From: Odontesthes bonariensis | Taxonomy: Eukaryota; Chordata; Actinopteri; Atheriniformes; Atherinopsidae | Direction: 5' to 3' | Length of the DNA stretch: 64,000 nt | NCBI RefSeq assembly: GCF_027942865.1 | Contig: NC_134524.1 | Coordinates: forward strand, 27,504,536 to 27,568,535 | In this document: piece after piece, positions 14,901-42,250 of the stretch | How the letters are laid out: each line of letters opens with the position of its first letter | Numbering within the stretch: the stretch's first letter is position 1 | Position numbers and translations under genes: made by a program | Notes under the pieces: model-generated | What the model was told of the DNA's origin: nothing | Seen by the model: only the letters and a program-made list of their open reading frames with translations | The model's database searches: none

Positions 14901-15658
14901 AGACCGCCGCAGACGATCTCGGCGTCGCCGCAACGACCAAGAGCCCAGCGTGATGGATGCCGCTGCAGAGTCGGACAGCCAGGCTGGCCCCAGTGAGAAC
15001 GGCCTGGGTGAGCCTCGGTTTTCTGATCTCACCTTTGTTGTCTGATACTTCCATCAATGTCCGTAAGAAATGTTACTATCTGAGACTTCAGACGACAAAT
15101 ATGGAAGTAAAAATTCAGAGTTGTGACTTAATTAGGGACAATGATCCATATCATCTCATTTGTCTGTTAGATGAAGAGGCCAGACCTCAGCGCCGGAACC
15201 GAAGCCGCCGCCGTCGTAATCGTGGAAACCGCCAAGAGGGAGGTTCAGCTAGCCGTGACAGACAGCCAGGGGAAAATGGTATGTCCAGTATTATAGCTGT
15301 TTTAGTGTTTAAATTTTTCCTCTCTGAAATCCTCTGTGGATTAATCTAGCTAATGGATTTGAATGTTTCCAGTTACTGTTGCTGACTACATATCCCGTCC
15401 TGAGTCCCAGAGCAGACAGAACATGCCCCAGAAGGAAAACCATGCTGCACCTGAGCCCAAGGTACAGGCAGAATTGCACAAATTCACCTCAGTGTTACTT
15501 GTCTTGACTAGATATTGGTTTATGATTACTACCTTTTGTATCCACAGGAAAACGGCACCAGTGCCAAGAAGGGTGAGCGAACGCCCACCAAGCGTTCCCC
15601 CAGCAAAGACATGACATCGGCCGGCGAGACCCTGACTCTGGTCAATGGGGTCTCATAA
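2965..15658 (+). CDS. fxr2: Fragile X-related protein 2 (FMRP family), exons 2-17; exon 1 outside window
   Basis: FMRP-family RNA-binding protein that associates with polyribosomes and mRNP granules and regulates translation. Exons read from GT-AG sites with continuous phase: 2965-3017, 3778-3871, 5357-5428, 6665-6813, 6922-7015, 7231-7347, 8198-8368, 8451-8529, 8669-8778, 9176-9262, 13903-14122, 14215-14394, 14813-15007, 15171-15278, 15373-15461, 15548-15658 (TAA). They give 642 residues; with a usual 17-residue exon 1 the protein would be about 659, near human FXR2. Numbering on that assumption: tandem Tudor/Agenet domains to about 120; KH1 with GSHG at 235-238; KH2 with GKNG at 298-301; a leucine-rich export signal at about 360-379; RGG-type stretches; two arginine clusters (RRRRSRRRR and RRNRSRRRR); and the family ending NGVS. 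The second cluster followed by NRGNR and the YMTDES stretch favour FXR2. A TNSELSN block is more like FXR1, so the paralogue call is not certain. Confidence 0.85.
3885..4790 (+). mobile_element. Dead Tc1-like transposon in fxr2 intron 3
   Basis: The + strand translates in broken frames to Tc1 transposase segments: a stretch like the DNA-binding/linker region (RRLN-type motif read as RKRLNKYGL), then [15 protein letters not shown], then KPQDFWNN with the catalytic-region wording HETKVEIFG, and downstream [12 protein letters not shown]. Frame changes and a stop near 4382 show it cannot make an enzyme. It lies wholly within the intron, in the same orientation as fxr2. The ends are approximate because I could not see clean terminal repeats. 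Confidence 0.85.
4852..4906. repeat. (GAAA)n microsatellite joined to a teleost repeat tail
   Basis: About six GAAA units are followed directly by a short segment (ACTTTATTCATCCCCCAATG, then GGGGAAATT) that looks like the 3' tail of common teleost retroposons. A microsatellite beside such a tail is a usual footprint of an old retroposon insertion. The family was not identified. Confidence 0.5.
6331..6417. repeat. Perfect 29-bp inverted repeat (hairpin) in fxr2 intron 4
   Basis: The arms at 6331-6359 and 6389-6417 are exact reverse complements over 29 bp, with a 29-nt loop. No neighbouring transposon coding sequence is visible. It may be a remnant of a palindromic MITE or a structured intronic RNA; the sequence alone does not decide. 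Confidence 0.8.
7348..8197 (+). other. fxr2 intron 7
   Basis: An 850-bp intron between clear donor and acceptor sites. A short direct repeat of the phrase AGCTTTCAGTAAGCACTAGA occurs near 7400-7437. I see no coding region or mobile element. Confidence 0.7.
8779..8826 (+). other. Possible alternative 3' extension of fxr2 exon 10 (16 codons)
   Basis: After the main exon 10 donor (GAG|GTAGGC at 8779) the reading frame stays open for 48 nt, rich in G, R, D and S, to a second GAG|GTGAAT donor at 8827. An in-frame stop follows six bases later, so only use of the second donor keeps the protein. The extension would fall in the KH2 variable loop just before GMVPFVFVG. Which donor is used cannot be told from DNA. 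Confidence 0.4.
9309..9332. repeat. Poly-T tract in fxr2 intron 11
   Basis: A run of more than 20 T lies 46 bp after the exon 11 donor. It is probably the tail of a retroposon lying in minus orientation or simple slippage. No coding content is attached. Confidence 0.8.
12020..12675 (+). mobile_element. Teleost SINE-like element, split by a later insertion
   Basis: The left part (about 12,035-12,208) contains a GGAGTCGAACCGGGGCC phrase like a tRNA-type promoter box B and an upstream T-rich head. The right part (about 12,626-12,675) ends with ACCCACTACGCCACCGACC. The phrase GAGGACTAAAG at 12,198-12,208 continues naturally into GCCTCTGTACATGGGGCGGC at 12,625, so the roughly 415 bp between them were inserted afterwards. 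The family name is not assigned. Confidence 0.55.
12209..12625. mobile_element. MITE-like insertion inside the SINE
   Basis: This GC-rich segment separates the two halves of the SINE. It contains several GCGTCTG/GAGGCTNTGCG phrases in both orientations near its ends, as in teleost Harbinger-type MITEs. Exact terminal repeats and target duplication could not be fixed by eye. Confidence 0.45.
12778..13390. mobile_element. MITE with about 23-bp terminal inverted repeats
   Basis: The left end GGCTGTGTTCGAAACCGCAT and the right end are reverse complements for about 23 bp, and TATGAGTAGTA/TACTCAT phrases recur just inside. The flanks TTA and GTA would fit a 3-bp Harbinger target duplication with one change. 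There is no coding capacity. It sits inside the dead Harbinger element. Confidence 0.75.
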
Positions 15659-17325: not shown

Positions 17326-20300
17326 AACCTCTTCTGTGGAGACGAACTTTGATTTCTCTGTCTTGTGAGTTTGCAGTCTATTTTTCTAACTTGCATGGCA
17401 TTTAGTTACTGAGTGGTAGGTGATGCCTGTCCTGTGCATGAGGAAAGGGTGTTATTAATCTGACTTACAAAGCCATTGTTTCATTCACTAGAATTGCTGC
17501 TAATGTACACACTGAATGTCCAACTAACGTAGAAGCTCTGCCTTTGGTGGAGGACAACTTTATTTGTGACTGAATCAACATTTTCCTTCTGCTCATCTGC
17601 CCTGAATGTCCCACTTTCAGTGGACACGAGTCAGGAAGGGACCCATTACTTCGTCTCAAAAAGTATTAAAACCCAAGGGCAACATTGTGCATGACAAGCA
17701 AGCGTCCACATGGCCAAAGGTTTGAGAGACAGATGAATGGGAGTAAGGTTGAATCGAGATGACCCAGATGCTGCTGTTGTACATTTCTGCTCACCTGTAT
17801 GTTGTGTTTTAGAGAATGAACGAGTATTTTGAGTATTTGTACCTTGGTTCAGTTGCATGTGTGTGAGTGGAGAATGAGGCTGTGTCTGGTATGCCTGTGT
17901 TTGCCTTTATACCTCATCGTGTGAGTACTGTATTCCCTCATGTATCCGTATCCCTCGCGTCGTTTTTGAAAGACTGATGGCTGCGCTCTGTGTGTGTGTG
18001 TGTGTGTATGAATGCTGGTTGTACAGGCAACTCCTCACTCAAATTTTTGTCTCTGGTTTTCTCACTCATGTTCTGATGGCAATAAAGGACTTTTCATTGT
18101 TTGGTATACATTTTTGCAAAAGTTTGTTTTTTGTATTACGCACTTAAACTCTGCCAGGAGACTATCCAAATTTTACTGTGAAACTTGTGCATAATGTAAG
18201 TGAGCTTTAACTATTTTTTCTGTTATATTACACCAATATCTGCAATTCAGAGTGACCTCCTATATTTTTAGCCTTTTAGTAATGTCACTGCTGTAAGGAT
18301 GGTTTAGTTTCCCTGTTGTTACGTCACTGTTAAAACAGGACGGTACCTTTTATTTGCTGATTTTATTCTGCTTTTGATTGCTGTTAAAGATTTAATACAG
18401 TAGTAACTCAGCAGACTTATCATGTAAATCATGGCCTCTTCATTAAATAATCGTCATGAGCCTAGGTTAATATGCATAAAAAGGTAGCTCCAAGATCTTC
18501 AGGTTTTGTTTACGTAATGTCATTTTCATTGAAACTAAATACAAGTTTGCTGCTACCCAGAGATTAATTCAACTGGTTACTTTACAGGCAGAGGTCTGTG
18601 TGAAAGTTACCGAAATAGATCAATGACAGCAAAAGAGGAGTTCTGTCCAACTGAAAACATGGAGTTGGTTTGGAAAAACAAACCGCCACAGTATAAGAAA
18701 ACATATGACATCTTGGCTACCGTTGGTTGGAATAAAGTTCAGTTTACCGCTGAGGGCAGACTTGTGCTTTATGAGTGATTCAAATTACTCAGGACTGCAA
18801 TGTCAGAGATGTGAACCAGAGTGGTGGCGTCATTGTGCTGTGGAAATGGATATCTTCTTACCCTCTTTGAAAGAAGAGGGTGTATAGCGGTATTCAAGGG
18901 ACGATGGACTCTAGAAGTAGCATGTTTTGGTTTCTCAAAGTCTTATGCAGAGTCTGGGATTTGAACAATTGACTGTTTGAAATGAGACAAAGTCAGACAG
19001 ACACTTGACAAAGCAAAATTTAAGAGCCAGTATTCAAGTAAGATTCTCAGGATTCATGGAGATGTAACCATGGTGGAAATCAGCAAGAACAATTACCTGT
19101 ACCTAAGTATTCATTTTGAAGTACTTGCACTATTTTTAAGTTTCCGATGCTACCTCATGCTCCCACTTAACCCCATTTCATTAGGAAGTATTTAATCTTC
19201 AGTACATATATCTGAAAGCTCTTATTACTAGATACTTATTAGATGAAGATTCAACATTATGCATAACATACTAAACAGTAAAACTAAATTAAATTCACGG
19301 TAAGGCTTGTTATCCACAGACTAATACAGCACATCCCAGCCAAGGTCTGATATTTGATGACGATTTAGCATCAAAATAAGTACAATAAATATATTCTCTC
19401 ATAGTCTGTTCACAATCTGTTTTTGCCTCATAGTCTGTTCACAATCTGCTAGACAGGGATAAGTACAACAATTTGCATGTTGGGTGGCTCACCATTAGTC
19501 CTTACTGGTAATGTGCTTCTTACCAATCATGTGCCGTGCTGCCTCCACCACTCTCAGGGACTGCTCTCATAAAATTATTTTATACTGTAATATACCAGTT
19601 ACACTATTGATATGAAAGTAAGTTAAGTGGACTTGTAAAAAGTCTTTCACAAGCTGTAAAGTTGAAGGTATGATGGAGTTGAACTTTCATGAGTTGTTCA
19701 TGCACAAGATATGCAGCCTCTCACTCTGTTTGAATGACATCTTTGATGCCAGGGCAGGTGCTGAAAATGATACACTGCTCTCAACAGGTTTCCCCTGGTT
19801 AACCAAAGGCATAACTAATTAATTTTGGATTGGAGTGAATGTTCATAGAAAGTGATTAATACTGTAATGGTAGTGCTTTTTTTCCAACAAAAATGAGAAC
19901 ACAAAATTATTGCACCCATCCATTAAGTCACTGCTTTCTTGGATAACAGCTGTGGAATCTGGCAAACAGCAGTCATATTAAATGTTGTATCAGGTATCTT
20001 ACCACCGTGATCTTTTATTTGTTATATAAAGTAAATGGTAAGTTTTCACTTTTTTCCCCATGTTTATTCCAGCCGCAATCAACAGACACAGCCAGTGTGT
20101 GACAAATAATTGATAGAAGAAGCAAACATAAAATAATTTAACAATAAACATAGCTTTCAGGGATTTTTTTTTACTGAAAACAGAAAAGAATAAGTTTAGG
20201 TTTAATTTTACAAATGCAGTATAAGAACATAATGACACAAATAAAAAAAAATAACACGGCTATTATGACTTTAAAAAGCGTACCATTTGTAATATCTGTA

Positions 20301-20996
20301 GATTTACCCTGTTGATATGTCCATAGACATAGTCAATTCAGAAATTCTATTTTGATTTCTTAACAGTAACCGAAAACCTCTTACACAACCAACTCGGGAA
20401 GACCAACCTTTTCCCAGTAAAAGCTAGTTCATACCGTCACCCAATCACAGTCCAGACATTTTGATGGACACGTTTACCTTCCAATCACACGTCTACATGC
20501 GTGCATAATTCTCAAGTTTGGCGTTTCTGTTGATCTTGTTGATACACTGTGAGTGTTGTGCTTTTTCTTAATTTTATGTCTCTGCTTTATACGGGTCTAC
20601 AATCGTAACGACTCACTTTGCCAATATTTGATGGACGCGAATGAGTTTAATTTATCAGCTAATGTAGTTGTTGTTGCTGTTGTAGTTCGTAACTATTGTT
20701 AGCTTTCTGCTAGCAACCCGGCTAGCACCTCTGTGATTAGGAAGTACTAACACGGAAACTTATTCGTATTCATCATCCCTATGGTCTGCTATATTTTAGT
20801 TGAAATGGGTTTCCGACGAACTCTTATGGCGTTAGTCCAAAAATCGTTTGGCTTCGGTGCCCTCAGTCACATGCTGTTTCCTGTAAATGGTGTTGTTTAT
20901 TCACCACACGCCCACTGACCGCGTCTATTACTACTTTTTAGGTAGTCTTGTCACCCATTGCGTTTCCCCTTTGTAGATAGATGCACTGCTGTAACA
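17326..20996. other. Intergenic DNA between fxr2 and the first rbm4-like gene
   Basis: A (GT)n run is present at about 17,990-18,007, and an 18-bp phrase (CATAGTCTGTTCACAATC) is duplicated near 19,400-19,450. I see no gene or mobile element with coding content. The last 500 bp should contain the rbm4 promoter and 5' UTR; the sequence before the ATG at 20,997 has a possible acceptor (TTTGTAG) at 20,970-20,976. Confidence 0.5.
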
Positions 20997-22108
20997 ATGG
21001 TGAAGATTTTCATCGGGAATCTCTCTCAGAACACTGAGAAAGAGGAAATTGAAGGTCTCTTCACAAAGTACGGGGCAGTGACAGAATGTGCCAAGTATAA
21101 AAATTATGCATTTGTGCATATGGAGGATCGCAAGTCTGCCACTAAAGCCATCCGTGAGTTACATCTTCACAAACTGAATGGCCGTCCTATCAATGTGGAG
21201 CCCAGCAAAGGGAAGAACCAGGGTCCAGTGAAGCTTCACATAGCTAATGTTGAAAAGGGGTTTGATAAAGAGCTGCGTGACCTGTTTGAAGAGTACGGCA
21301 CAGTCACAGAATGTTCGATTGTTAAGAACTTTGCCTTTGTGCACATGCCCAATTATGATGAGGCCATGGATGCTCTGCAGGGCCTGGATAACACAGATTT
21401 TCAAGGTAAGTGAGTTTGACAATGTAGTCTATGTTTGAAGCTTGGGGAGTTTCTGTTCTAGGTCTTGAGATTTTAGGGAAAATGTTTTTCTTTCTCTCAG
21501 GAAAGCGCATTCACGTTCAGGTATCAAACAGCAGGCCGAGGGGGCTTCCTGAGGAGGAGGAATATCTACAGCTACTAGGCAGAGGAGTCTATTATCCTCC
21601 TCGCTATCCAGGGGAGAGGCCTGAGCCGCCCTACAGAGGTCGCTCCTCTGTTTACCCCCCTCCTCCTCTCCCTCCACTCGTTCCCCCCAGACGACCACCT
21701 TATCCCGACCGTGGTTATGGCAAGAGAGATGCCTACCATCTTGTTGATTACTATGAGAAATACAGAGCCCGTCCATACGGCGCTGCAGGCTATGATGACA
21801 GGCGTGCCATTCCTCCTCCTCCGCCTCCTCCGTCGGCACTTGTCAAAGAGCGACTAGGAATGGGACCGCTTGACCCATATGAGCGGCATCCACTCCCAGC
21901 TCCTTCGTCTTATGCGGTCAGGGACCGGAGCCCTATCAGAAGACTTCCCCCTCCGCCTACTCCATCAGCAGGTAACGGGTACTCCTACGAGCGGTCTCGG
22001 CTCTCACCGATGTCCAGGACTCCGCTGTACGCGGCTCCCCGTCCCAGGGATTCTTTTTCAGAGAGAATTCCCCCCCCACCTCCACCACCTCGCTATGCAG
22101 GCTATTAG
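20997..22108 (+). CDS. rbm4: RBM4-like RNA-binding protein, copy 1 (338 aa)
   Basis: Two-RRM RNA-binding protein of the RBM4/Lark family, which in vertebrates acts in alternative splicing and translation control. Exons 20,997-21,405 and 21,501-22,108 with a 95-bp intron. I chose the ATG that starts MVKIF because all paralogues share it. RRM1 has RNP2 at 4-9 (IFIGNL) and RNP1 at 35-42 (KNYAFVHM); RRM2 has RNP2 at 79-85 and RNP1 at 110-117 (KNFAFVHM). The tail is rich in proline, arginine and tyrosine ([20 protein letters not shown]). The CCHC zinc knuckle of mammalian RBM4 is absent, as expected for the teleost rbm4.x group. A third, non-coding exon probably follows: a donor lies 21 nt after the stop and an acceptor at about 22,448. 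A sequence-identical 3' copy lies at 28,466-29,534. Confidence 0.9.
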
Positions 22109-23110
22109 ACTGCAATAGTGTGGCACAAGGTGAGGGCTGCAAGGGAATGTTTCAAAACTCCATAAGTCTCTTTAATCACAAGTCTCTTTAATGTGGTGGA
22201 TTAAAAAAATCTATTGATGTTTGTGTCAAAATTGAGTAAAAGCTGAATCCACAAGTTGATAGTCATGCTTTCATACCATCAACCAGAGCTCTTAATTTGT
22301 GCAGATTTACTTCAATCATTAAAACAGTATACAACTAGTACACGTTGCTGTTATAATGCTCAAATATTGCTGATTTAATTTCAAACAGTCTTGCGCGAAT
22401 CCTGAGTTAAACACACTCCTTGACATTTGTGGTGTGCTCTCTTTCCAGGTTTAGAATATGACAAGATCGTCGTTGTCTGCTGATGCACGTGGTGCTATAC
22501 ACCCCCTACGTCTATGGCGGATTGCGTTGCGTTCACCTGTGACTTACTCGAAGATATTGCAGACAGCCCCGTTCTTAAAACAAAAATGCGATTCCATGTC
22601 CACAGTTCTTCTGAGCCTTTCATGCCTTTTCTGGTCCTCTTTTTGTTTTACTGTTGAGATTCTTAAGATGTTTTGCTGGACAGGTGTAGACTACTTCAGT
22701 GGGAAGCAGTAGCCGGAAACTACCCGCTTTGTTGTTAAATCTTTTTCAGAAAGTCTTCTGGGAAACTAATATATTTTCATAACAAGGGAATGCATAAAAT
22801 CACAGTGTGTGGTCTTTGTAAACAAAACTGCTTTCAAGGTAGGCTTGTTGATTTAAAAAAAAAAAAAAAAAAAAGAGAGAGAAAAAAAAGCTAATTTCTT
22901 AAGGTAAAAAATACCTTTAGAAGTGCTACTTGGTGTGGGAGGTTGTATAGCAGTTTCAGATTTGCGACATGTTGGCATGGCATCAAGAGTACCAGTGTGA
23001 TTTTTGTTCTTTTGACACTTGAATAGACTCTATTAGCCCTGCCCTGTACGCTTTTATTTACTTTCCAAGTTGCTTTTTATTTGAAGTCTTTTTAATAAAC
23101 ACATGAAACC
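22109..23110 (+). other. 3' UTR of rbm4 copy 1, with a UTR intron
   Basis: CACAAG|GTGAGG at 22,129/22,130 and TTTCCAG at 22,442-22,448 bound a likely UTR intron. The following exon begins with a GATCGTCG...CTGATGCACGTG phrase also found after the acceptors of copies 2 and 3. AATAAA lies at 23,094-23,099. A poly-A run is at about 22,856-22,874. Confidence 0.55.
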
Positions 23111-23289
23111 AACAACAGCATTTTAACTGTGAAATTATTCTTCATTGCGTTGGGCTTTTGTACAGTAACTGGGCAGACAGCCTCGATTGACCAAAATATA
23201 TTAACTACAGTCGTGCTATCCATGCGCTTTCGGTTTGTAGTTTTTAGCTTGACACGTGGTAGATGATGCTTCATTCAACAGCATCAAAA

Positions 23290-24540
23290 TGTGTTTAATT
23301 TCTGATGAAAAACACCCATTCTGGATTCCAAATCTTTTTATTTCTTTTTTTTTTACCTGAGCAGCCTTGTTTACAATGTGTCAGAAAATTCCACAGTTGC
23401 TGCAGATTTGTCATTTGCACATCTATGATGCAAATCTCCCAGTCCACAGCATCCCAAAGGTGCTCTATTGGATTGAGATCTGGTCCCTGTGTAGGCCATT
23501 GGAGTACAGTGAACTCATTGTCATATTCAAGAAACCATTTTGAGATGATATGAGCTTTGTGACATTGTGCATCATCCTGCTGGAAATAGCCATCAGAAGA
23601 TGGGTACACAGTGGTCATAAAGGGATGGACATGGTCAGCAACAATACTCAGGTAGACTGCGGCATTTAAACGATGCTCAATTGGTACTAAGGGGCCCAAA
23701 GTGTGCTAAGCAAATATCCCCCACACCATTACACCACCACCAGCAGCCTGAACCATTGATACAAGGCAGGATGGATTCATGCTTTCATGTTGTTTACGCC
23801 AAATTCTGACCTTACCATCTGAATGTCGCAGCCGAAATCGAGACTCCTCAGACCAGGCAACGTTTTTCCAATCTTCTATTGTCCAATTTTGGTGAGCCTG
23901 TGCGAATTGTAGTCTAAGCTTTCTGTTCTTAGCTCACAGTAGTGGCACCTGCTGTGGTCTTCTGCTGCTTTAGCCCATCTTCTTCAAGGTTCCATGTGTT
24001 GTGCGTTCAGAGATGGTATTCTGGACTCCTTGGTTGTAACAAGTGGTTATTTGAGTTACTGTTGCCTTCCTATCATCTCAAACCAGTCTGCCCATTCTCC
24101 TCTGACCTTTCACATCAACAAGGCATTTTCGTCCACACAACTGCCGCTGGATATTTTCTCTTTTTTGGACCATTCTCTGTAAACCCTAGAGATGGCTGTG
24201 CGTGAAAATCCCAGTAGATCAGCAGTTTCTGAAATACTTAGACCAACCAGTCTGGCACCGACAACCATGCCACGTTCATAGTCACTTAAATCCCCTTTCT
24301 TCCACCATTCTGATGCTCGGTTTGAACTTCAGCAAGTTGTCTTGACCACCTCTACATGCCTAAATGCATTGAGTTGCGGCCATGCGATTGGGTAATTAGC
24401 TTTTTGTGTTAATATGCAATTGAACAGGTGTACCTGTTCAGGAAGGATTTGCATCCCAGTTTACAGCTAGGAAAAACTGACTAAAGCTGAACAAACCTGT
24501 CACGCTCAGACTACAGAACTGGATTTAAAAAAAAAAAAGC
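23290..24540 (-). mobile_element. Dead Tc1-like transposon
   Basis: On the minus strand the region reads, through several stops, an N-terminal helix-turn-helix part (GDLSDYERGMVVGARLVGLS, then a LLGFSRTAISRVYREW block) and then, in the 23,295-23,699 ORF, the catalytic end QQDDAQCHKAH...WPTQGPDLNPIEHLWDAV. The order and wording are those of Tc1 transposases. Stops in the middle show it is inactive. It lies just downstream of the rbm4 copy 1 polyadenylation signal. Confidence 0.85.
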
Positions 24541-27236
24541 GATAATAGTCAAATACAACGGAAAGAAATTCTTGACCGTTTTGACTTTGCTTCGGTTCAT
24601 GTCTTATTTCAAGAATCCTCAAATCCATCTTCCAAGATTTTTGGTGGCATAACCTGCCATACATCTTTAAAATCAGACTAAATGAACTCTACAACAAAAA
24701 TGTATTTTATAATGATCATCATGTTGTGCCAGCGTTGATCAGGTGAAAGCCAGATGTTTCCTACTATTCTCATGTGTTGGCGCAGAGCATCTGTAACTGA
24801 AACCTGCAGCCCCCTCATTCTCATTATATTATCGTTGTCTAAGCTTATATGTTGGTCATAAAACTGACATGCTTGTGTTGTGCAGTGATTGAATCTGGCT
24901 CATCTTGAGTCTGTTGGCGACCGAATAGCTGTTTCTTGCCTCAGTCCTCAGCTTTAATTGCCAACATTGTATTTAGTCATTTAAAGTGATTTTCTTTGGA
25001 ACAGAAGAATTATTTCTTGGACTTTGCGATGACTAGTGATTCTGAGGACTTTGGACCGTTACGCTCAATTTGCACTCTTCATTTTGATCAAAATCCCAAT
25101 TCACATCTGTCACCTCTTCATGTCAATATTTAGACTTTGTGAATTTGCACCACAAATTGCTTGCAATCTTGGTGTTCTCAGTATTTTTGCCCTTCGTAGG
25201 TTGTTAGACTATATACAGGAGATGTCAACTCATGGTAAGTCATCCTCAGAAGATGTCCAAAATCCTAAAGAAACAAGGTATCCTATATACTGTTTAAACC
25301 GTACCTCTTAACAGATAGTAATACCACAGTTTAAAAAAATCCTGGTATTGGATTCATGCTGCTGTTTACTTGGCATTGAGGACATTTTGTTTTTTAGTCT
25401 ACAAGCTAATACAGTTTTGTAGTGCTCTTTAATGTTGCATTATTAGACAACAGGAAACCTAAGTTTTGGCTGTCTTTTTGTTTTATTTTTCTATAACAAG
25501 TTGATTTTCTTAGTGAATTTGTCAATGTAACTTTGGCAGAAGGCAATAAATGGAATTGTTGGCTGATGTCATTAACGGCCACTTGTGGATATCATTGACT
25601 CTGCATCTTTTTCCACAGGCTTGTTTCTCCAGTGATGGTCTCGAGGGGATTGGAAATTGGAGTTCAAATTGGAGTTTGAGCTGGAGAAATGTGAACAGGC
25701 TGTCCTGTAGTTAAAGGTAAAACAGCATTCGATCATGTGGTCCATTTTATATACATTTAGTCTGTGAGGCCCTTAAAGGACTTTTTGAACTATGACTGAT
25801 GAATCTTTATTTTTACAGGAAGCGTAGTCCTCCTGTGGGAGTTTGGTCCATTGGTTGATTAGCTGAAAAAGAATGCCATGGAAACCCTGCTTGTTTCCAT
25901 CTTTATTCTTTGCAGCTGACAACACTATGAGAGTTTTGGTATAGTTTTTGTGCCTTTGTTGAAGAACAAAAAAAACCAAAAGGAACAAAGAAGTACATAA
26001 CAAGTGAATGCTTTATTTAAACAACATTTGATTTGATGTGTTATCTGTTTAGCCTTTATTGTTTTTTTCTAAATGAGCATTAAATTTGTGTGAAACTTTT
26101 TTAAATCTTTTTTTTTTTTTAAACCCTAATACTTTTAAAACAGTCTGTCACTTTTTTATGTTTAGTAAATAAACTATTTGTTTTCTAAAACTTAAAATGT
26201 CCTGTCATTTTACTTGTCTCAAAGATTATCGTTGCTCTTTTGTGAACTTTTGGAAGCTGTGGGATACTTTCTCTTCAGTGGTGGGGTGCAACACCACTGT
26301 CATAAAAACAAATGTTGGTGTGAGCCCTGCAAATGTACAGCCATACACATGAATGTTGCTGTCATGTTAAAAAGGCCACAAAGACGCCATCAAATGCCCA
26401 CAAATTTGTCCAGCGACGATAAAGAAAGATGGAGTGTTGTGGGGCTGAACATCATGAACTATGGTATCTATGTCCCTGGATGCTCAAGTAATGTACATAA
26501 CAGAAGTCAGTATACTTTAAAATGAGTCAGAAGCACATGGTTTTAAGGTTCAAAAACTTGTTTAGTGTTGCTTTATTAACCTGCAGTGTGTTGGAACCAG
26601 TTCTGACATGGATTCATTGAGAGATGGATTCCATCCTGTACAAGTAGTGTAGATGGATAGATGTTACAAGTTTTGCTTTGGGAAACATGGATCTGATTGA
26701 ATTTATTTTTAGTAAACTGGAAAGTAAAGCTTTCACTTCTACCAAAGAGTGAAACGTGTAATTTTCTCTTCCCCTTTTCAGAAGCCTTGCTTAATGACTG
26801 AAGTTGCTTCGGGTCTTATTAGTTTCCCTTTAAGCATACTTCCTTCTCAATGGACTTTTAAGAGATCATGGTGAAGGCTGGAATTTCAGACTGCATGGTT
26901 TTATGGGGGGTGTTGAAGAAGTGCAACAAGTGCCTGAATGACAGCAATTAGTTTCCAAACATTTATGGCTTTTGTTCTCTCTCCTGAAGCTTGCTGTTAC
27001 TGTCATAAGTGATTGTTGCAACAGTTACATGAAAATGTCTTATTGCATCTCCTGGCTGTAAACTCGGCACATAAAATAAACCAACTGAACTTTGTTTTTA
27101 AGACCTCAATAAATAGCATGAGTTTATTGACTTAACCAGTGCACATTATGTCTACAGTCGAGTGTCGTCTTAACATGAGAGTTAGCAGAATGAAGTCTAA
27201 CATTACTCAAATCCAGCTGAGGTGGGATGCACAACC
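24541..27236. other. Intergenic DNA, no gene recognised
   Basis: The short ORFs at 25,036-25,311 and 26,214-26,525 resemble nothing I know. AATAAA-type signals occur near 25,550, 26,168 and 27,075. Given the long 3' UTRs of the other two rbm4 genes, part of this could be distal rbm4 copy 1 UTR, but no splice pair is convincing. Confidence 0.4.
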
Positions 27237-28465
27237 ACAGTGTTACAGCAGAATTTGTTTTTGTATGATCATGTCACTTGAAAAGTTGTGGGAGTACATT
27301 TACTCAATCCCATTTTTGGGGAATTTGTACTTGAGGTTGATAGCATTTTATGTCATATAATAGTAAATGTAAGCACATCCATGAAAAGCACTTGCACTCT
27401 TTCAGAGGTAAATATTTTAATTTAATAATCTTTTTTTGAAAGTAAAAATCTGGCTCATACTGGACAAGCAAAGTGATTCATGAATACCTCCTCCACTGGT
27501 ATCTAAGAATTTCCCGCATTTAGTTTTTTCTTTGCTAGGCTCATGTTGTCACTGTAACCCGAGCTCAAAGATAGCAAGAGCCACTTTTTCTCAGTCAGAT
27601 CAAGAAAAACCTGCTTCCACAGACTCAATTGCATTGTGTTTGAGGTAAAGTGCTTGTCCTTGAATTATTTGTGGGTTGTATGGTGGTGTGTTGGTTAGCA
27701 CCGTTGCCTCACAGCGAGAGGGTTTCAGGTTCAACTCCCTGTTGGGGCCTTTCTGTGTGGAGTTTGCTTGTTCTCCCTGTGTATGCGTGGGTTCTCTCTG
27801 GGTACTCTGGCTGCCTCCCACTGTTAATTGGTGTCTCTAGGAGTGAGCGTGTGTGTGGTTGTTTGTCTCTGTGTGACCCTGTGATGGACTGGCAACCTGT
27901 CCAGGGTGTACCCTGCCTCTTGCCCGATGACCGCTGGGATAGGCTCCAGCGCCCCTGCGACCTGACCGACAGATTAAGCGGCTATAGAAAATCAATGAAT
28001 TGTTTGTGACTAACGATATTCAACAATGGGCAAGAAAAGAAGTTGCACAAAAACTACTTATTTGCTGAAGTTGGAAATGAAGAAGCAAGTACAGTAGCTT
28101 TAACACATCACGACATTTACATATTAAAAGTAACAAAGCATTAGTAAGATTGTATCTTTGACATAGCCATGATAGACACAAGAGTTAAAATAATGCTATT
28201 TCACATTTAAAAGTGGCATCTTAATCAATTCTGCTCTTCTAATGTAACGAGTGGAAAGAAATTTATGTTGCCTTGAAGTTCAGTATGTGGGTAAATAAGA
28301 ATCATCAAGAGGTGAATGTTCATCATGAATAACATACAGGAGTCTCATCAGTCTCCTGGGGGACAAGCGCTCCGATGTCAGCTGTGAAATTGTTCATCAA
28401 GCCTGTGTCCATGACAGGTGTCACAATGGGCTCACATGTGCATCTCTCCCTGGATGGAGGCACTG
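27237..28465. repeat. Duplication block, copy A (tifa downstream sequence, interrupted)
   Basis: 27,237-27,623 and 28,150-28,465 recur downstream as 29,535-29,922 plus 29,923-30,100 and again as 30,101-30,360 plus 30,361-30,692. Only here are the two parts separated, by 526 bp that include an interspersed repeat. Near identity of the copies indicates recent duplication. Confidence 0.85.
27672..28005 (+). repeat. Common teleost interspersed repeat, nearly complete
   Basis: Contains the familiar phrases TGGTTAGCACCGTTGCCTCA, TGTGTGGAGTTTGCTTGTTC and GGATAGGCTCCAGC in order. The same family recurs at 48,935-49,058, 54,716-54,880, 57,817-58,190 (reverse) and 61,930-62,060. It has no coding capacity. 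I do not assign a class. Confidence 0.75.
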
Positions 28466-28471
28466 CCAGCA
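28323..28471 (-). pseudogene. Duplicated 3' end of tifa (about 49 codons), broken
   Basis: This is the last part of the tifa reading frame, including the TRAF6-binding tail, and matches 30,550-30,698 of the intact gene. It stops abruptly where the rbm4-derived block begins. It has no start or FHA core and so cannot make the adaptor. Read on the other strand, it supplies the first residues of the chimeric ORF. Confidence 0.9.
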
Positions 28472-29372
28472 AAGGGAAGAACCAGGGTCCAGTGAAGCTT
28501 CACATAGCTAATGTTGAAAAGGGGTTTGATAAAGAGCTGCGTGACCTGTTTGAAGAGTACGGCACAGTCACAGAATGTTCGATTGTTAAGAACTTTGCCT
28601 TTGTGCACATGCCCAATTATGATGAGGCCATGGATGCTCTGCAGGGCCTGGATAACACAGATTTTCAAGGTAAGTGAGTTTGACAATGTAGTCTATGTTT
28701 GAAGCTTGGGGAGTTTCTGTTCTAGGTCTTGAGATTTTAGGGAAAATGTTTTTCTTTCTCTCAGGAAAGCGCATTCACGTTCAGGTATCAAACAGCAGGC
28801 CGAGGGGGCTTCCTGAGGAGGAGGAATATCTACAGCTACTAGGCAGAGGAGTCTATTATCCTCCTCGCTATCCAGGGGAGAGGCCTGAGCCGCCCTACAG
28901 AGGTCGCTCCTCTGTTTACCCCCCTCCTCCTCTCCCTCCACTCGTTCCCCCCAGACGACCACCTTATCCCGACCGTGGTTATGGCAAGAGAGATGCCTAC
29001 CATCTTGTTGATTACTATGAGAAATACAGAGCCCGTCCATACGGCGCTGCAGGCTATGATGACAGGCGTGCCATTCCTCCTCCTCCGCCTCCTCCGTCGG
29101 CACTTGTCAAAGAGCGACTAGGAATGGGACCGCTTGACCCATATGAGCGGCATCCACTCCCAGCTCCTTCGTCTTATGCGGTCAGGGACCGGAGCCCTAT
29201 CAGAAGACTTCCCCCTCCGCCTACTCCATCAGCAGGTAACGGGTACTCCTACGAGCGGTCTCGGCTCTCACCGATGTCCAGGACTCCGCTGTACGCGGCT
29301 CCCCGTCCCAGGGATTCTTTTTCAGAGAGAATTCCCCCCCCACCTCCACCACCTCGCTATGCAGGCTATTAG
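28375..29372 (+). CDS. Chimeric ORF: tifa antisense leader + rbm4 RRM2 and tail (300 aa), status unknown
   Basis: An ATG at 28,375, within antisense tifa sequence, opens 32 codons; the frame then passes directly into the rbm4 copy 1 reading frame. Coding segments 28,375-28,669 and 28,765-29,372 keep the rbm4 donor, acceptor and phase, giving 300 residues: a novel leader, complete RRM2 and the proline/arginine-rich tail. RRM1 is lost. The duplicated block (28,466-29,534) looks identical to 21,202-22,270, intron included. No rbm4 promoter came with it, and the UTR acceptor was left behind although the UTR donor is present. It may be an expressed new gene, an unexpressed partial copy, or an assembly artefact. 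Confidence 0.5.
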
Positions 29373-29534
29373 ACTGCAATAGTGTGGCACAAGGTGAGGG
29401 CTGCAAGGGAATGTTTCAAAACTCCATAAGTCTCTTTAATCACAAGTCTCTTTAATGTGGTGGATTAAAAAAATCTATTGATGTTTGTGTCAAAATTGAG
29501 TAAAAGCTGAATCCACAAGTTGATAGTCATGCTT
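28466..29534 (+). repeat. 1,069-bp duplicate of rbm4 copy 1
   Basis: It corresponds to 21,202-22,270 at a constant offset of 7,264 with no difference seen in coding sequence, intron or UTR. The left junction shares the six bases CCAGCA with both parents, a microhomology; the right junction (GCTT|ACAG) has none. Identity of intron and UTR points to a very young event or an assembly fault. Confidence 0.9.
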
Positions 29535-30360
29535 ACAGTGTTACAGCAGAATTTGTTTTTGTATGATCATGTCACTTGAAAAGTTGTGGGAGTACATTTA
29601 CTCAATCCCATTTTTGGGGAATTTGTACTTGAGGTTGATAGCATTTTATGTCATATAATAGTAAATGTAAGCACATCCATGAAAAGCACTTGCACTCTTT
29701 CAGAGGTAAATATTTTAATTTAATAATCTTTTTTTTGAAAGTAAAAATCTGGCTCATACTGGACAAGCAAAGTGATTCATGAATACCTCCTCCACTGGTA
29801 TCTAAGAATTTCCCGCATTTAGTTTTTTCTTTGCTAGGCTCATGTTGTCACTGTAACCCGAGCTCAAAGATAGCAAGAGCCACTTTTTCTCAGTCAGATC
29901 AAGAAAAACCTGCTTCCACAGATTGTATCTTTGACATAGCCATGATAGACACAAGAGTTAAAATAATGCTATTTCACAATAATGCTATTTCACATTTAAA
30001 AGTGGCATCTTAATCAATTCTGCTCTTCTAATGTAACGAGTGGAAAGAAATTTATGTTGCCTTGAAGTTCAGTATGTGGGTAAATAAGAATCATCAAGAG
30101 TAAATGTAAGCACATCCATGAAAAGCACTTGCACTCTTTCAGAGGTAAATATTTTAATTTAATAATCTTTTTTTGAAAGTAAAAATCTGGCTCATACTGG
30201 ACAAGCAAAGTGATTCATGAATACCTCCTCCACTGGTATCTAAGAATTTCCCGCATTTAGTTTTTTCTTTGCTAGGCTCATGTTGTCCCTGTAACCCGAG
30301 CTCAAAGATAGCAAGAGCCACTTTTTCTCAGTCAGATCAAGAAAAACCTGCTTCCACAGA
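29535..30360. repeat. Duplication block, copies B and C of tifa downstream sequence
   Basis: Copy B is 29,535-30,100 and copy C starts at 30,101, part way into the unit (equivalent to 27,364). Both lack the 526-bp segment found in copy A, and both carry an extra 16-bp repeat (ATAATGCTATTTCACA twice) absent from copy A. B and C therefore share a more recent ancestor. One base (GTCACTG/GTCCCTG) and one T-run length separate them. Confidence 0.85.
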
Positions 30361-30549
30361 TTGTATCTTTGACATAGCCATGATAGACACAAGAGTTAAA
30401 ATAATGCTATTTCACAATAATGCTATTTCACATTTAAAAGTGGCATCTTAATCAATTCTGCTCTTCTAATGTAACGAGTGGAAAGAAATTTATGTTGCCT
30501 TGAAGTTCAGTATGTGGGTAAATAAGAATCATCAAGAGGTGAATGTTCA

Positions 30550-31131
30550 TCATGAATAACATACAGGAGTCTCATCAGTCTCCTGGGGGACAAGCGCTCC
30601 GATGTCAGCTGTGAAATTGTTCATCAAGCCTGTGTCCATGACAGGTGTCACAATGGGCTCACATGTGCATCTCTCCCTGGATGGAGGCACTGCCAGCACC
30701 TCAAACTTCACTTCAAAGCTTGCCTTGGCTTCTCCAGACTCACGGATGATCAGCATCTCATACTCCCCAAACCGGATCAGAGCCTTGTCTGGGAGATCTA
30801 CTCTCTCCAGGTATCCGAGTGCTGTGCTGTTCACTGACAGTTGCCCCCTCTGGCTCAGATTCTGGATGGTGAACAGCATCATAGGGCTGTTGGGCAAGTA
30901 GTAGGCATGGAGGGCCAGCTGTTTACGGGACACTTTGGGATCTACCAGAGCGAAGGAGCAGGCCTGGGCATCACGGCCAAGCCTGAGAGGGTCATCGGCA
31001 GAGTGTCTGCTTCTGACCCCCAAGGGCAACAAACCATAAAGGCCTTTACAGCTCTGCTGTGGGTGGTAAAGCTGGAGGTGCAGACAAGTCAGAAGATCCT
31101 CCTCTGTCTCTATTGTCTGAGACACATTCAT
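30550..31131 (-). CDS. tifa: TRAF-interacting protein with FHA domain, TIFA (193 aa)
   Basis: Cytoplasmic innate immune adaptor. In mammals, ALPK1 senses bacterial ADP-heptose and phosphorylates TIFA Thr9; the FHA domain of another TIFA binds that phosphothreonine, oligomers form, and TRAF6 is recruited to activate NF-kB. The single coding exon keeps all three parts: Thr9 in an acidic setting (IETEED), an FHA core with LGR at 51-53 and VSRKQ at 67-71 and the NLSQRGQLSVNS strand, and a C-terminal PQETDE at 182-187 matching the TRAF6 motif PxExxE. Length is close to human TIFA (184). The start is the first ATG and places Thr at exactly position 9. It is transcribed opposite to its rbm4 neighbours. 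Its 3' end and downstream sequence have been duplicated several times. Confidence 0.93.
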   Translation of the reverse strand: MNVSQTIETEEDLLTCLHLQLYHPQQSCKGLYGLLPLGVRSRHSADDPLRLGRDAQACSFALVDPKVSRKQLALHAYYLPNSPMMLFTIQNLSQRGQLSVNSTALGYLERVDLPDKALIRFGEYEMLIIRESGEAKASFEVKFEVLAVPPSRERCTCEPIVTPVMDTGLMNNFTADIGALVPQETDETPVCYS

Positions 31132-32932
31132 CTTGAAGAACAGTTCCTTATGAAATTAATAGGAAAGTTATGTTCAGTGATGATATGCTGTTAACACAGA
31201 ATACAAATTAAACATTTGCGATTCAGAGAACTGAACCAGTTTTTCAGTAAAACCAAACCTATAAGGACAAAATGTCGACATAAAGAAATTATAATACACG
31301 TCTGTGCCTTACCTGAACGTTAACTTTTTAAAGATGAAAATACAGAGAGACAGTTTCCCCCAATATAAAGAGATGAAAATATTGAGACATAACTCTTTAG
31401 ACTGACAAGGAACTAACGGTCCTGCTGCAACAAGTGGAAGCAGGAAGACTCCTGACTGTTCCGCAAGCTGTTTTCTTTTATTCAGAATGGTGTCGTCATT
31501 CTCTTACTGCCCCACTCAGACATCTGCTGCTTTCAAGTATGAATCCAGCAATTCGACGTTTGCTGTTAAACCTGCATTATTTAGAAACATTATGAGAGGC
31601 AAATCATTTAACAATATATCTCATAAGTAAAAATCCGGTTGTATTACTAGTGTGGAGGAGGCAAACCAATGATCCATTATAAAACAGTGTATTTTCATTC
31701 AGATTTGTTTAGATAGTTCAAAGAAGTAAATGGAAGGGCTATTTTAGCTGGTGTTGCATGGCCAATCCAAATTAATTTAATATGTACAGCATAGTCTTAT
31801 GACGCGGAAAAATGGAAAACGCCCCACTCAACCTACTGCAAAGCTAGTCTCTTAGCATGTTTTCTTTTTTAATGAAAAGATATTTTGGATTATGTGTATT
31901 TTACCTTAACTATGTGTCCTTAAACGCAGCATTGCAACAGAAAATTCCTCTCTGATGTAACCTAAGAAGGGGAGATTTTTTCTTCTTCTTCGTCTTCACA
32001 CGTGACATTGAGCCTGCAGTATTTACAACTATATCAGAAAGCCATGCCTGAAAAATTAAATTACCCCCCCCCCCGCTCTAACACGAACATGAAAACAATT
32101 ACATTACTGGATAAGAAATCGTGGTCAGTTTGTATCCCATACAGCTGTAAGTTTGCACAGAGAAATAAATGTGTTTAATATACACATTTAAATGTAGAGG
32201 AAGTCACAGAAGACAGTTAATCGTGAACTTAATAGAACATCGAGGGTTCTGGAGGAATGGGCCACAACAACAGCACCCGTAAGTTCAGATGGCAATGTCC
32301 TTGTTTTCCACGAAGAAGACAGTACAGAGGAGATGATCTTTGCGCAAGCGTAGTTAAACGGAACGGGAAGTCGACAGAAAGAAAGCTCTAGAAAAGGGTT
32401 TGAATTCTTTGGAGAAGCTGTCGTGTGAGAAGGTAACCAGCATGTAAAATAATCACACTTGATAGATCCCATTGATAATATCTTCCAAATCTACATATTC
32501 TGTATAACGCTGAGAGTTCGTTCGCCCGCCGGCTGCTTGTGAGCTAGCCTGTGAGCTAATACGTGCGGGGTTTTCTGTGTTAGCATGGCCTGACGAGCAA
32601 GCTAAATCCGTGCTAACAACTGTTTCCCAACAGCTATCTGCCCTCAGTGTACAATTAAGATGGCAATATTACATTTTAAAGCATTTTGAATATACAAGTT
32701 GTTTTGGCTGTTCTTGTAAGGAACCTATCATTTAATGCAAGTCTGCTAATTAAGTAAAATAACTTTAAAATAAATAATTTTAGGCATTATACAATTAACC
32801 GGTAGATTGAAGATGTAACTTTGTTTATTCTGGCGAATTATTTAAGAATCTTTTACGTACTAAGTTTGACTCTCCTGTTTCTTTTCTTCCCACTTTATTT
32901 CTCCATTATTTTGTGGAAATAGATATTTAAGC
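31132..32932. other. Space between tifa and rbm4 copy 2 (divergent starts)
   Basis: A minus-strand donor (CGTTCAG|GTAAGG, at 31,312/31,313) suggests that tifa has a non-coding 5' exon, with the acceptor (TTTCATAAG) near 31,150. A C-run lies at about 32,066-32,077. Near 32,340-32,390 the phrase GCGTAG...AACGGGAAGTCGA resembles the sequence before copy 3 (40,679-40,716) and may mark the rbm4 promoter. The ORF at 32,188-32,472 is probably chance. Confidence 0.4.
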
Positions 32933-34032
32933 ATGGTGAAGATATTTGTGGGAAATCTGCCCCGAGAGGCAGACGAGGAAGAAATCAAGGCTCTCTTTAC
33001 TGAGTATGGTACAGTTACTGAATGTGCCATCATCAAAAACTTTGCCTTCGTTCATATGGATGATCGCAAAGCCGCCACCAAAGCCATCAAGAATCTGCAT
33101 CTGCACAAACTTCACGGCACCCAGATCAACGTGGAGGCCAGTCATGGGAAGAACCAGGGCTCAGTCAAGCTGCATGTAGCAAATGTAGAGAAGGGATGTG
33201 ATGATGAGCTCCGTGCTCTCTTTGAAGAGTACGGTACAGTTACAGAGTGTGCTGTGGTTAAGAATTTTGCTTTTGTACATATGCCCAACTATGACGAGGC
33301 CATGGATGCCATCAAAGGACTGGATAACACAGAGTTTCAAGGTAAGAGAGGGCTGCTATTTATAAAGAAAAGAAAAGACCTCACTGGGTTTTCTCCATTT
33401 ATGTTTTTATTTTTCCACTTATTCTAGACAAACGGATCCATGTCCAGATTTCTAAGAGTCGCCCGAGGCATGATGAGCGAGACGACTATCCCCCTCCTCC
33501 TCCAGACAGGGGCGGCTACTGGCCTCCACGGTATCCAGGAGAGCGACATGAGCCTCCACCGCCCAGCTACATGAGGGGCCGAATGATGCCCCCAGGTTAT
33601 CCCGCCCCTCCTCTTCCACCCCCTCCCCCCAGACGAGCTGTTTATCCTGACCGTCCTTATGAAGGTGACAGGGAAAGATACAGCATGGTAGATTATTATG
33701 AGAAGTACAGAGCCCGTCCGTATGGCATCCCCCCCTACGAAGACCAACGTTCTGGTATCCCACCTCCTCCCCCTCCACCCTCAGCCGTCGTCCGAGAGCG
33801 TCTTATGAGTTCGTCGCTTGACCCGTATGAGCGTCGACCCCTTCCTCCTCCTCCGCCTCCGTCATCGTACTATGCCCGAGATCGCAGCCCCATCAGGAGG
33901 GCGCCTAGCGCACCAATGCCCCCTGCCAGTAATGGCTACTCCTATGATCGTTCTGCATACGGAGTTCCACGTGCTCGGGACCCCTACGCAGACCGGCTGC
34001 CTCCGCCTCCGCCTGCACGCTACGCTTATTAG
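32933..34032 (+). CDS. rbm4: RBM4-like RNA-binding protein, copy 2 (337 aa)
   Basis: Exons 32,933-33,341 and 33,428-34,032, with the intron at the same place and phase as in copy 1. RRM1 has IFVGNL and [11 protein letters not shown]2 has KLHVANV and KNFAFVHM. The tail carries [32 protein letters not shown], several proline runs and RDRSPIRR. There is no CCHC knuckle. It is nearly identical to copy 3 in both RRMs. It differs in the tail: copy 3 has [16 protein letters not shown] where this copy has DRSAYGV, nine residues shorter. The exon 2 reading starts with D (GAC) after the split codon, against G (GGA) in copy 1. A non-coding third exon follows a donor 21 nt after the stop. Confidence 0.92.
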
Positions 34033-36010
34033 GCGAGACGTCAGCAATTGAAGGTGAGAACCGGTCTGAGATAAACTGGTGTTCATACCTTTCCTTAAAT
34101 TTCCCCTCGTCCTTCCAAACGCAGAAGCAGCTTGTGAATTGTCCTGCATGCTCTAGATCTTGTGGGGTAAACAAGGTTTGAAAGAGTGCGTCCAAGTTGC
34201 TATTCTCCATGTCGTTTTAATGCACGTCAGCACATGAATTTGGAGTTTTGGCGAATGTCACCTTAAAAAGTAACGTATACCGTCAAAGTTGGACCCTGAC
34301 TAAAAACCTGACCTCGATCCAAAACTTTTGGCAAAAAAATGTATGATGGAACAACGTGCTATTACTTAAAGTTTCAGGTAGTTCATTTGTGTCATTTGCT
34401 CTTTTTTCAGGATTGTTGTCTGACTGCGTCGCCGCACGCCGCCTCCTGATGCACGTGACTCTGTCCCCCTCATGTCTGCGGCTGAGCGCGTTACGTTCCT
34501 CTGCGACACTCACAAGAGGAACCGAATCGCTGACGTCCATGACTATGTTTTTATTATTATTTTGGGACTATTTTTACACCTATTATTTTTTCCTCCTGAC
34601 TGTTTTAGAGTATAATTGTGCTGTAGTAGTTTCATTGGTTGACGTATGATTTTTGCGTTTTGTTTTTTTATTCCAGCTATTTCGTTAAAGTAATTTTAGT
34701 GTTTCTAATGTGACCTCATGATTCTAATGTGATCCTTAAAAAGCTAAATCCATCTCAGCAACAGTTTCAAGGCGGGACTTGTTTTGGTATACAATCTAAC
34801 CTGCACGTTGGTTCCATCAAGTAGAAGTTTTCCATCGACTGGCAAACCGCTGTGGCGTTGCTGTAAAAATTTAAAGGATAAGACCGGTTTTTTGACATTG
34901 GGCCCTTGATTTCACATTATAACATGATGTTCTACTCACCCCTGTTTGTTGTTGAACATTTGGAGCTGTTCCGAAGATATTCGAGAGGCGTCTGGCTGCT
35001 CTCTTGAGATATTCGGCCATGAAACGGTTTCCTATGGGCAAGCTTATACAGGCACAAACTATACTGTTTATAATTTATTAATTACTGTACATTAGCACTG
35101 ATTACGTGGAGGTGCGTCGCTTACTTAAAAAAATCCGGGTTACTGTAATTTTGATTTTTTTTTGTCGTAAAGTGGGTGTTACTGACGTCCTCGTCGTGCT
35201 ACTGCCACAAACAGCCCACAGACCTGCTGCCTATTTATTAATTCGGCTAAAATTCAAAATTAGTAACCCGGATTTTTTTAAGTAAGCGACGCACCTCCAC
35301 GTTATCAGTGCTAGTGTACAGTAATTAATAAATTATAAACAGCATAGTTTGTGCCTGTATAAGCTTGCCCATAGGAAACCGTTTCATGGCCGAATATCTC
35401 AAGAGAGCAGCCAGACGCCTCGCGAATATCTTCGGAACAGCTCCAAATGACCAACAACAAGCAGGGGTGAGTAGAACATCATGTTATAATGTGAAATCAA
35501 GGGCCCAATGTCAAAAAACCGGTCTTACCCTTTAAGCTTTTAAGATGTAGGAGTTAGATAAATGTAACTGTTAACTAGGCAGTTAATGCAAAGCGTTTTA
35601 ACTGTCGAATTCTCACTTTTAATAAAACAGATTTGTGCAGTAAATGTTAAATCTGATCAAAATGCTCATCGATAAAACATCACATCACTGTAACTGTTGA
35701 ATGAATCGAATACTGTTCTAGGATTTCTCATTAGTTAGTAGTAAAATAACGAATAATAAGCTTGTCAAAACCGTCACGTTGATTAAAGAACCTCCCCTCT
35801 GGTCTTGTCTGAGATCTTACAGCTTTTATCATTCATCAGCGGCCCACGTAATGTAACCCAAAGAGCCCAAATTTAAATCTTTCAGCATCAGAACTTAAAC
35901 ATTCCATGTACTCGACCAAGGTAGATTGCATAGCCAAGTACAGTTCATCATGGTCTGGGGGAAGGGATGACATCAAGGGCTGATGGAGACCTTCACAGTG
36001 AGCAGGTAAG
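34033..36010 (+). other. 3' UTR region of rbm4 copy 2, with UTR introns and a foldback insertion
   Basis: The UTR intron runs from GAAG|GTGAGA (34,053/34,054) to TTTTTTCAG (34,410). The next UTR exon matches that of copy 3 until about 36,006, where CAG|GTAAGT is conserved in both copies. The foldback element at 34,871-35,536 is absent from the copy 3 counterpart. Confidence 0.5.
34871..35536. mobile_element. Foldback element with about 273-bp inverted arms
   Basis: The arms at about 34,871-35,143 and 35,262-35,536 are near-perfect reverse complements (a few differences, for example TTAAAGGATAAGACC against the complement of GGTCTTACCCTTTAA). The spacer is about 118 bp. There is no coding capacity. 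The paralogous site at about 43,120 lacks it, so it inserted after the duplication that made copies 2 and 3, or was removed there. Confidence 0.85.
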
Positions 36011-41123: not shown

Positions 41124-42250
41124 ATGGTGAAGATTTTTGTGGGAAATCTGCCCCGAGAGGCAGACGAGGAAGAAATCAAGGCACTCTTTACGGAGTATGG
41201 TACAGTCACTGAATGTGCCATTATCAAAAACTTTGCCTTCGTTCATATGGATGATCGCAAAGCCGCCACCAAAGCCATCAAGATTCTGCATCTGCACAAA
41301 CTTCACGGCACGCAGATCAACGTGGAGGCCAGTCATGGGAAGAACCAGGGCTCAGTCAAGCTGCATGTAGCAAATGTAGAGAAGGGATGTGATGATGAGC
41401 TCCGTGCTCTCTTTGAAGAGTACGGTACAGTTACAGAGTGTGCTGTGGTTAAGAATTTTGCTTTTGTACATATGCCCAACTATGACGAGGCCATGGATGC
41501 CATCAAAGGACTGGATAACGCAGAGTTCCAAGGTAAGAGAGGGCTACTATGTATAAAGGAAAGGAAAAACTTCACCATGTTTTCTCCATTTATGTTTTTA
41601 TTTTTCCACTTGTTCTAGACAAACGCATCCATGTCCAGATTTCCAAGAGTCGTCCGAGGCATGATGAGCGAGACGACTATCCCCCTCCTCCCCCAGACAG
41701 GGGCGGCTACTGGCCTCCACGGTATCCAGGAGAGCGACATGAGCCTCCACCACCCAGCTACATGAGGGGCCGAATGATGCCCCCAGGTTACCCCGCCCCT
41801 CCTCTTCCACCCCCTCCCCCCAGACAAGCTGTTTATCCTGACCGTCCTTATGAAGGTGACAGGGAAAGATACAGCATGTTAGATTATTATGAGAAGTACA
41901 GAGCCCGTTCGTATGGCATCCCCCCCTACGAAGACCAACGTTCTGGTATCCCACCTCCTCCCCCTCCACCCTCAGCTGTCGTCCGAGGTCGTCCTATGAG
42001 TTCGTCGCTTGACCCGTATGAGCGTCGACCCCTTCCTCCTCCTCCGCCTCCGTCATCGTACTATGCCCGAGATCGCAGCCCCATCAGGAGGGCTCCTAGC
42101 GCACCAATGCCCCCTGCCAGTAATGGCTACTCCTATGAGCGTTCTCGTCTCTCTCCAGTTTCCCGGATCCCTGCATATGAAATTCCACGTGCTCGGGACC
42201 CCTACGCAGACCGGCTGCCTCCGCCTCCGCCTGCACGCTACGCTTATTAA
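41124..42250 (+). CDS. rbm4: RBM4-like RNA-binding protein, copy 3 (346 aa)
   Basis: Exons 41,124-41,532 and 41,619-42,250, with the same 86-bp intron length, position and phase as copy 2. RRM1 and RRM2 differ from copy 2 at very few residues (for example K-I-L against K-N-L near residue 54 and DNAEF against DNTEF). The tail has the [14 protein letters not shown] segment missing from copy 2, so this copy is likely closer to the ancestral length; copy 1 also has RSRLSPMSR. There is no CCHC knuckle. A donor 21 nt after the stop (42,271/42,272) and an acceptor at 42,630 mark a UTR intron. Function is as for copy 1; whether the copies differ in role cannot be seen. Confidence 0.92.

Follow-up and report, generated by a model that had tools for sequence, protein, structure and literature searches.

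A 64,000-nucleotide stretch of the Odontesthes bonariensis genome (assembly GCF_027942865.1, contig NC_134524.1, positions 27,504,536 to 27,568,535 of the forward strand; hereafter the window, numbered from its first letter) was analysed around an open reading frame at 28375-29372, in which the antisense of the 3′ end of tifa runs into most of the gene rbm4. This chimeric frame is probably the seam of a recent head-to-tail repeat of the interval that separates rbm4 copy 1 from tifa, two genes facing each other. The repeat most likely arose in a single event of template switching guided by microhomology, and the frame itself probably does not function as a gene. Both the frame and the duplication are real in the assembly.

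The frame is read on the forward strand as 28375-28669 spliced to 28765-29372, giving 300 codons with the phase intact and a stop ending at 29372. Its first 97 bases (28375-28471; 32 codons plus one base) match the tifa side and the remainder is rbm4. Exon 1 (28375-28669) therefore holds 32 new codons, antisense to the tifa 3′ end, followed by the rbm4 linker and the start of RRM2. The copied rbm4 intron (28670-28764, GT-AG, 95 bp) shows no difference from the parent intron, and exon 2 (28765-29372), which carries the end of RRM2, the Pro-rich tail and the stop, repeats the final coding exon of rbm4 copy 1 letter for letter. The new N-terminus is thus joined to the last four-fifths or so of rbm4 (about 268 of 338 residues). 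A retrocopy origin was rejected because the rbm4 intron is retained. A 303-bp query from the chimera was compared with the whole assembly (945,434,557 bases in 187 contigs; only the best candidates were scored) and returned seven matches: itself in full, rbm4 copy 1 (query bases 92-303), tifa (query bases 1-97), one in rbm4 copy 2, two in rbm4 copy 3, and one weak match of 78 bp that lies 3 Mb off. No second full copy of the chimera was found among the candidates scored. The sequence match to both parents far exceeds chance; the open frame itself does not.

One complete copy of each parent has been kept. The intact rbm4 copy 1 (20997-22108, forward strand; coding exons 20997-21405 and 21501-22108) encodes 338 aa with two RRMs, a Pro-rich tail and no CCHC knuckle, and is 92.4% identical to P0001 of Leuresthes tenuis (California grunion), the species that supplied the named proteins with the highest scores. 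The intact tifa, a gene of innate immunity (30550-31131, reverse strand), encodes 193 aa with an FHA domain and is 92.2% identical to L. tenuis TIFA P0121, 15 of the 193 residues being different. Comparison of tifa with the assembly gave one full match and one 149-bp match, the latter being the truncated 3′ end of the tifa frame at 28323-28471 (reverse strand), which has no 5′ part and no promoter.

The arrangement of the locus accounts for the odd orientation of the two pieces. The stretch 21202-28471 opens at codon 69 of rbm4 copy 1 and closes 149 bp within the tifa frame; it recurs head to tail, the period being 7264 bp. It forms the complete unit 1 and is followed by a shortened unit 2 (28466-30698), which is collinear with it in the same orientation, carries the duplicated tifa 3′ flank and runs into the intact tifa. 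After the seam at 28471 the order is rbm4 (segment C, a copy of 21202-22270), A′, B′, A″B″ and intact tifa. A′ (29535-29922) is a copy of 27237-27623 (A) with no substitutions and one 1-bp T indel, and B′ (29920-30100) reproduces the first part of the segment at 28147 (B) with a 16-bp tandem insertion. A″B″ (30099-30698) is a tandem repeat of A′B′ with a period of about 439 bp and leads into the intact tifa. The native left-to-right order rbm4 - A - B - tifa is therefore preserved in unit 2, minus two omitted stretches of 4966 bp (22271-27236) and 526 bp (27624-28149) and with the one tandem repeat of about 439 bp gained. The two units adjoin in the same order and orientation, and unique flanks continue properly on each side (5′ rbm4 sequence to the left of 21202, 5′ tifa sequence to the right of 30698), as in a head-to-tail tandem duplication. 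The 526-bp stretch contains a dispersed repeat at about 27672-27992, with related stretches at 48936-49055 and 57826-58180, and this repeat is flanked by near-identical copies of TGAATTRTTTGTG, near-perfect when read by eye. Because the missing stretch holds such a repeat, its absence from unit 2 suggests a derived state. Since rbm4 copy 1 (forward strand) and tifa (reverse strand) are natively convergent, the tifa fragment stands antisense to rbm4 with nothing inverted. Inversion or transposition of an rbm4 piece was rejected, as no inverted copy exists and order and orientation are native.

At the tifa-to-rbm4 seam (J1, 28466-28471, forward strand) a 6-bp microhomology, CCAGCA, is common to both genes, within the 5-10 bp range of microhomology/microsatellite-induced replication (MMIR) and microhomology-mediated break-induced replication (MMBIR). 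The join at 29534-29535 (J2), where 4966 bp are skipped, has 0 bp of microhomology; that at 29920-29922 (J3), where 526 bp are skipped, has 3 bp (AGA); and that at 30099-30100 (J4), where the tandem repeat starts, has 2 bp (AG). Among 300,000 random joins drawn in 20000-32000, leaving out pairs less than 50 bp apart or with at least 40 matching bases, microhomology of at least 6 bp occurred in 0.21%, at least 3 bp in 5.9% and at least 2 bp in 16.8%. Microhomology thus seems to have guided J1, with the caveat that this is the best among four joins. Replication would have reached 28471 inside tifa and slipped back 7264 bp to CCAGCA inside rbm4; 1069 bp would then have been copied, 4966 bp and 526 bp skipped, and the native order into tifa resumed. 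A′B′ and A″B″ have the same J3 and the same 16-bp insertion, indicating that the 439-bp repeat copied an already joined template; it would have been made on the A′B′ product in the same event or soon after.

The identity of the two units is nearly complete. Positions 28466-29534 equal 21202-22270 over 1069 of 1069 bases (segment C), a stretch that takes in the 95-bp intron and 162 bp downstream of the stop. Taken together, C, A and B show no substitutions over 1781 aligned bases, and B compared with B″ shows no substitutions plus the 16-bp insertion. Substitutions listed at 30098 and 30102 and small gaps at 30099 and 30104 are alignment overrun at J4 and were not counted as evidence. When they are dropped, the differences in total are one substitution (30288, in A″), the 1-bp T indel and the 16-bp insertion. 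These results suggest a very young duplication. The count of 0 in 1781 bounds divergence below about 0.17% (3/1781), and at a substitution rate of 5e-9 per site per year the duplication would be under roughly 170,000 years old; it may still be segregating. Gene conversion as the sole cause of the identity was rejected, the non-coding A and B segments being equally identical. The initial annotation had taken the frame to be newborn, with 300 residues of which 32 are new, with the rbm4 intron sites and phase kept, and with rbm4 copy 1 and tifa as parents joined at 28471. Reading 28375-28669/28765-29372 confirmed the frame, the match of 28323-28471 to the final 149 bp of the tifa frame confirmed the parents and the join, and the 1069/1069 identity of the copied rbm4 part upholds the age. 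Its proposal that an rbm4 segment had been placed behind an oppositely oriented tifa piece was not borne out, as a single head-to-tail duplication of 21202-28471 explains the seam with both orientations native.

An open frame at such a seam needs no selection, because in-frame start codons before a stop are common at joins of this kind. In simulated joins in antisense tifa, an in-frame ATG preceded a stop in 38.8% of 1746 cases with the three phases pooled (the real phase gave 38.7% of 582 cases), and 19.1% of the 1746 gave a frame of at least 32 codons. For random joins in the window (n = 40,000) the values were 29.7% and 7.7%, respectively. As chance frames go, the 32 new codons are ordinary.

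The same geometry bears on expression. A duplication between convergent genes unites two 3′ fragments, so no parental promoter is present at the seam: an expressed chimeric gene would inherit a promoter or 5′ end from one parent, and here an rbm4 3′ part is joined to a tifa 3′ part. The mean observed/expected CpG ratio in the 1 kb upstream of the chimera was 0.40, equal to the window median of 0.40 (636 windows), compared with 0.84, 0.80 and 0.93 upstream of rbm4 copies 1, 2 and 3 and 0.53 upstream of tifa. An upstream non-coding exon, missing from the chimera, probably also belongs to the parent rbm4 copy 1, since TTTGTAG before the parent's ATG looks, by eye, like a splice acceptor. The likeliest source of any RNA over the chimera would be read-through transcription of rbm4 copy 1, which would have to cross five AATAAA and four ATTAAA motifs lying on the forward strand between the two. 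Such read-through could splice 21405 to 28765 and yield an unchanged rbm4 protein with a different 3′ untranslated region (UTR), a more natural product than the chimera.

With residues 1-42 of the chimera as query, no candidate protein was found. The search with the whole chimera, in which 7973 candidates sharing most words were scored, gave 375 matches, rbm4-like proteins and many of them unnamed, of which the best 120 were examined. Three words from the new N-terminus occurred in 0 of these 120, though another such chimera could hide in entries clustered under one of them or in the remaining 255. In 36 of the 120 the alignment begins before chimera residue 28, against RRM1 sequence and not against a shared new start. 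A search of the literature for rbm4, tifa and fusion together found nothing within the literature covered. Pfam RRM_1 is matched by a single stretch in the chimera (E 2.7e-11, profile positions 13-70 of 70) and by two in the parent, which leaves the chimera short of the two RRMs of the RBM4 family. An RBM4 study, using two human chimeras and one reporter, suggests that splicing choice is governed mainly by the N-terminal RNA-binding region (PMC3602429). Lacking RRM1, the chimeric protein would more probably have no activity, and the idea that it competes with rbm4 is speculative.

The initial annotation had nevertheless proposed a gene whose product could compete with full rbm4, that is, a 300-aa single-RRM protein that is transcribed and translated. 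The open frame, the intact intron, the RRM_1 match (E 2.7e-11) and an ATTAAA copied at 29464, downstream of the stop, are in favour of this, and a shortened rbm4 model of 300 aa without most of RRM1 is annotated elsewhere (Channa striata P0038), where the new start is not shared. Neither the status of a gene nor competition with full rbm4 is supported, however. Both pieces are 3′ fragments without a parental promoter, upstream CpG is at the window median, the start lies in the context GCTCCGATGTC behind 21 ATGs in 27237-28374, the 1069/1069 identity bears no sign of selection, and residues 1-42 have no candidate protein. We regard such a functional gene as highly improbable. A broader version, a still-segregating newborn gene in which an antisense start codon sits on most of rbm4 and read-through transcription yields either a competitor with one RRM or an extra last exon bearing a new 3′ UTR, appears very unlikely as well. 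The gene claim is unproven and structurally disfavoured, and the seam is likely raw material for a new gene, not a working one. An effect on regulation and not on protein, in which the tifa 3′ flank is replaced and rbm4 copy 1 is given a spare last exon, was judged unlikely. The last-exon copy is identical, and the first ATTAAA now lies about 390 bases beyond the tifa stop (30550 to 30158), whereas the order in unit 1 puts it at about 900 (28323 to 27421); these are distances between sequence positions, whichever poly(A) site tifa uses.

Two further explanations concern how the structure arose. An assembly artefact, with two alleles or a chimeric read wrongly put in series, would fit the near-perfect identity and the resemblance of unit 2 to a deleted version of unit 1. 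However, the window contains no N, assemblers do not normally join on 6 bp, and A′B′ and A″B″ have an identical internal join. Moreover, at the heterozygosity of L. tenuis, another species' value (0.714%, as given in the part used of PMC13326419), alleles should differ by about 12.7 in the 1781 bases of C, A and B, or by about 5.9 in the 820 of these that are non-coding, and no difference was seen. An artefact is thus possible but disfavoured. A stepwise history, in which a plain 7264-bp tandem duplication was followed by two deletions and by the 16-bp and 439-bp repeats in unit 2, yields the same final structure, and the 439-bp repeat must in any case come after J3. Against it, about 2.2 kb with four further length changes holds just one substitution (30288), so that separate events would have had little time, and all of the length changes fall in unit 2 if unit 1 is ancestral; we consider this history somewhat unlikely. 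Several points weigh against the template-switch seam itself. The microhomology at J2-J4 (0, 3 and 2 bp) is unremarkable compared with random joins and compatible with end-joining or stepwise deletions, and J1 was the best of four. That unit 1 is ancestral, and that the 526-bp absence is derived, would follow from this one genome and may not hold against an outgroup. CpG is a weak promoter proxy, tifa itself scoring low (0.53); the likely silence of the frame is read from sequence, and with an open frame, a copied intron and the ATTAAA at 29464 a transcript could be processed normally.

The seam was compared with known systems, as far as the parts of the cited papers used here extend. In yeast, duplications form via 5-10 bp microhomology, breakpoint joins lie in microhomology or trinucleotide repeats, and 26 sequenced breakpoints gave 13 different chimeric open reading frames (ORFs) (PMC2518615). 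The present locus resembles MMIR in its segmental duplication, its 5-10 bp of seam microhomology and its chimeric ORF at the breakpoint, but such microhomology occurs at only one of its four joins and its period is 7.3 kb, in contrast to the 115-kb tandem duplications of the yeast assay (PMC2518615). Chimeric genes also arise from tandem duplications in Drosophila yakuba and D. simulans (PMC4503668), and of 51 new transcripts from rearrangements in D. yakuba, 40 take in a start codon that was already there (PMC6776367). As there, breakpoints within gene sequences create a new frame; unlike there, both pieces here are 3′ ends and the start codon is new (PMC4503668, PMC6776367). In the terms of a review of gene duplicates (PMC3449122), the frame corresponds to a chimeric duplicate, a derived copy with a unique ORF end, and the review recognises the class by a genic donor, a role that tifa plays for the 32 new codons. 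It differs in that the tifa sequence is read on the opposite strand and a single duplication supplied both pieces. It is not a partial duplicate with recruitment, in which the new ORF part lacks a genomic source, as this part matches the tifa 3′ end (PMC3449122). Compared with the RBM4/Lark family, the chimera has the RRM2 and Pro-rich tail of teleost rbm4 but one RRM, and the CCHC knuckle is absent from chimera and parent (PMC3602429). That knuckle is ascribed to all RBM4 homologues except those of nematodes (PMC3602429). In the three rbm4 proteins of the window (20997-42250) and in the best 120 of the 375 matches no CCHC zinc knuckle pattern was present, the list favouring the knuckle-less type.

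The other rbm4 copies and the remainder of the window showed the following. Copies 2 and 3 (32933-33954 and 41124-42145) are 96.7% identical over 1022 bp, intron included, and the pieces that match farther downstream agree at 91% and 81%, with no upstream match reported. This contrast makes gene conversion between the two copies likely. Copy 2 is without nine residues present in copy 3 and in L. tenuis P0074. Copy 3 is 99.1% identical to its L. tenuis counterpart (3 of 346 residues differ), and rbm4 copy 1 and tifa, each at about 92%, seem to evolve faster. Upstream of the rbm4 cluster, a frame at 13783-14205 matches FXMRP1_C_core (fragile-X related core C-terminal, E 1.2e-25), and an Arg-rich frame at 14957-15349 has no Pfam match. 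A frame at 3812-4384 matches a Tc3-type transposase HTH (HTH_Tnp_Tc3_2, E 1.4e-07), an inverted repeat at 34864-35542 has 281-nt arms, 96% complementary and spaced by 117 nt, and a V-set immunoglobulin-like frame of 271 aa at 51095-51910 contains two V-set stretches.

The event is of a known kind, with nothing new in kind. Its value is that of a nearly mutation-free snapshot of a multi-join local duplication, in which the breakpoint letters are still readable. Because seams between convergent genes join two 3′ ends, frames such as this one would usually be born silent. If the duplication is still segregating, it would allow us to ask whether promoterless chimeric frames get transcribed and whether the expression of tifa or rbm4 shifts.
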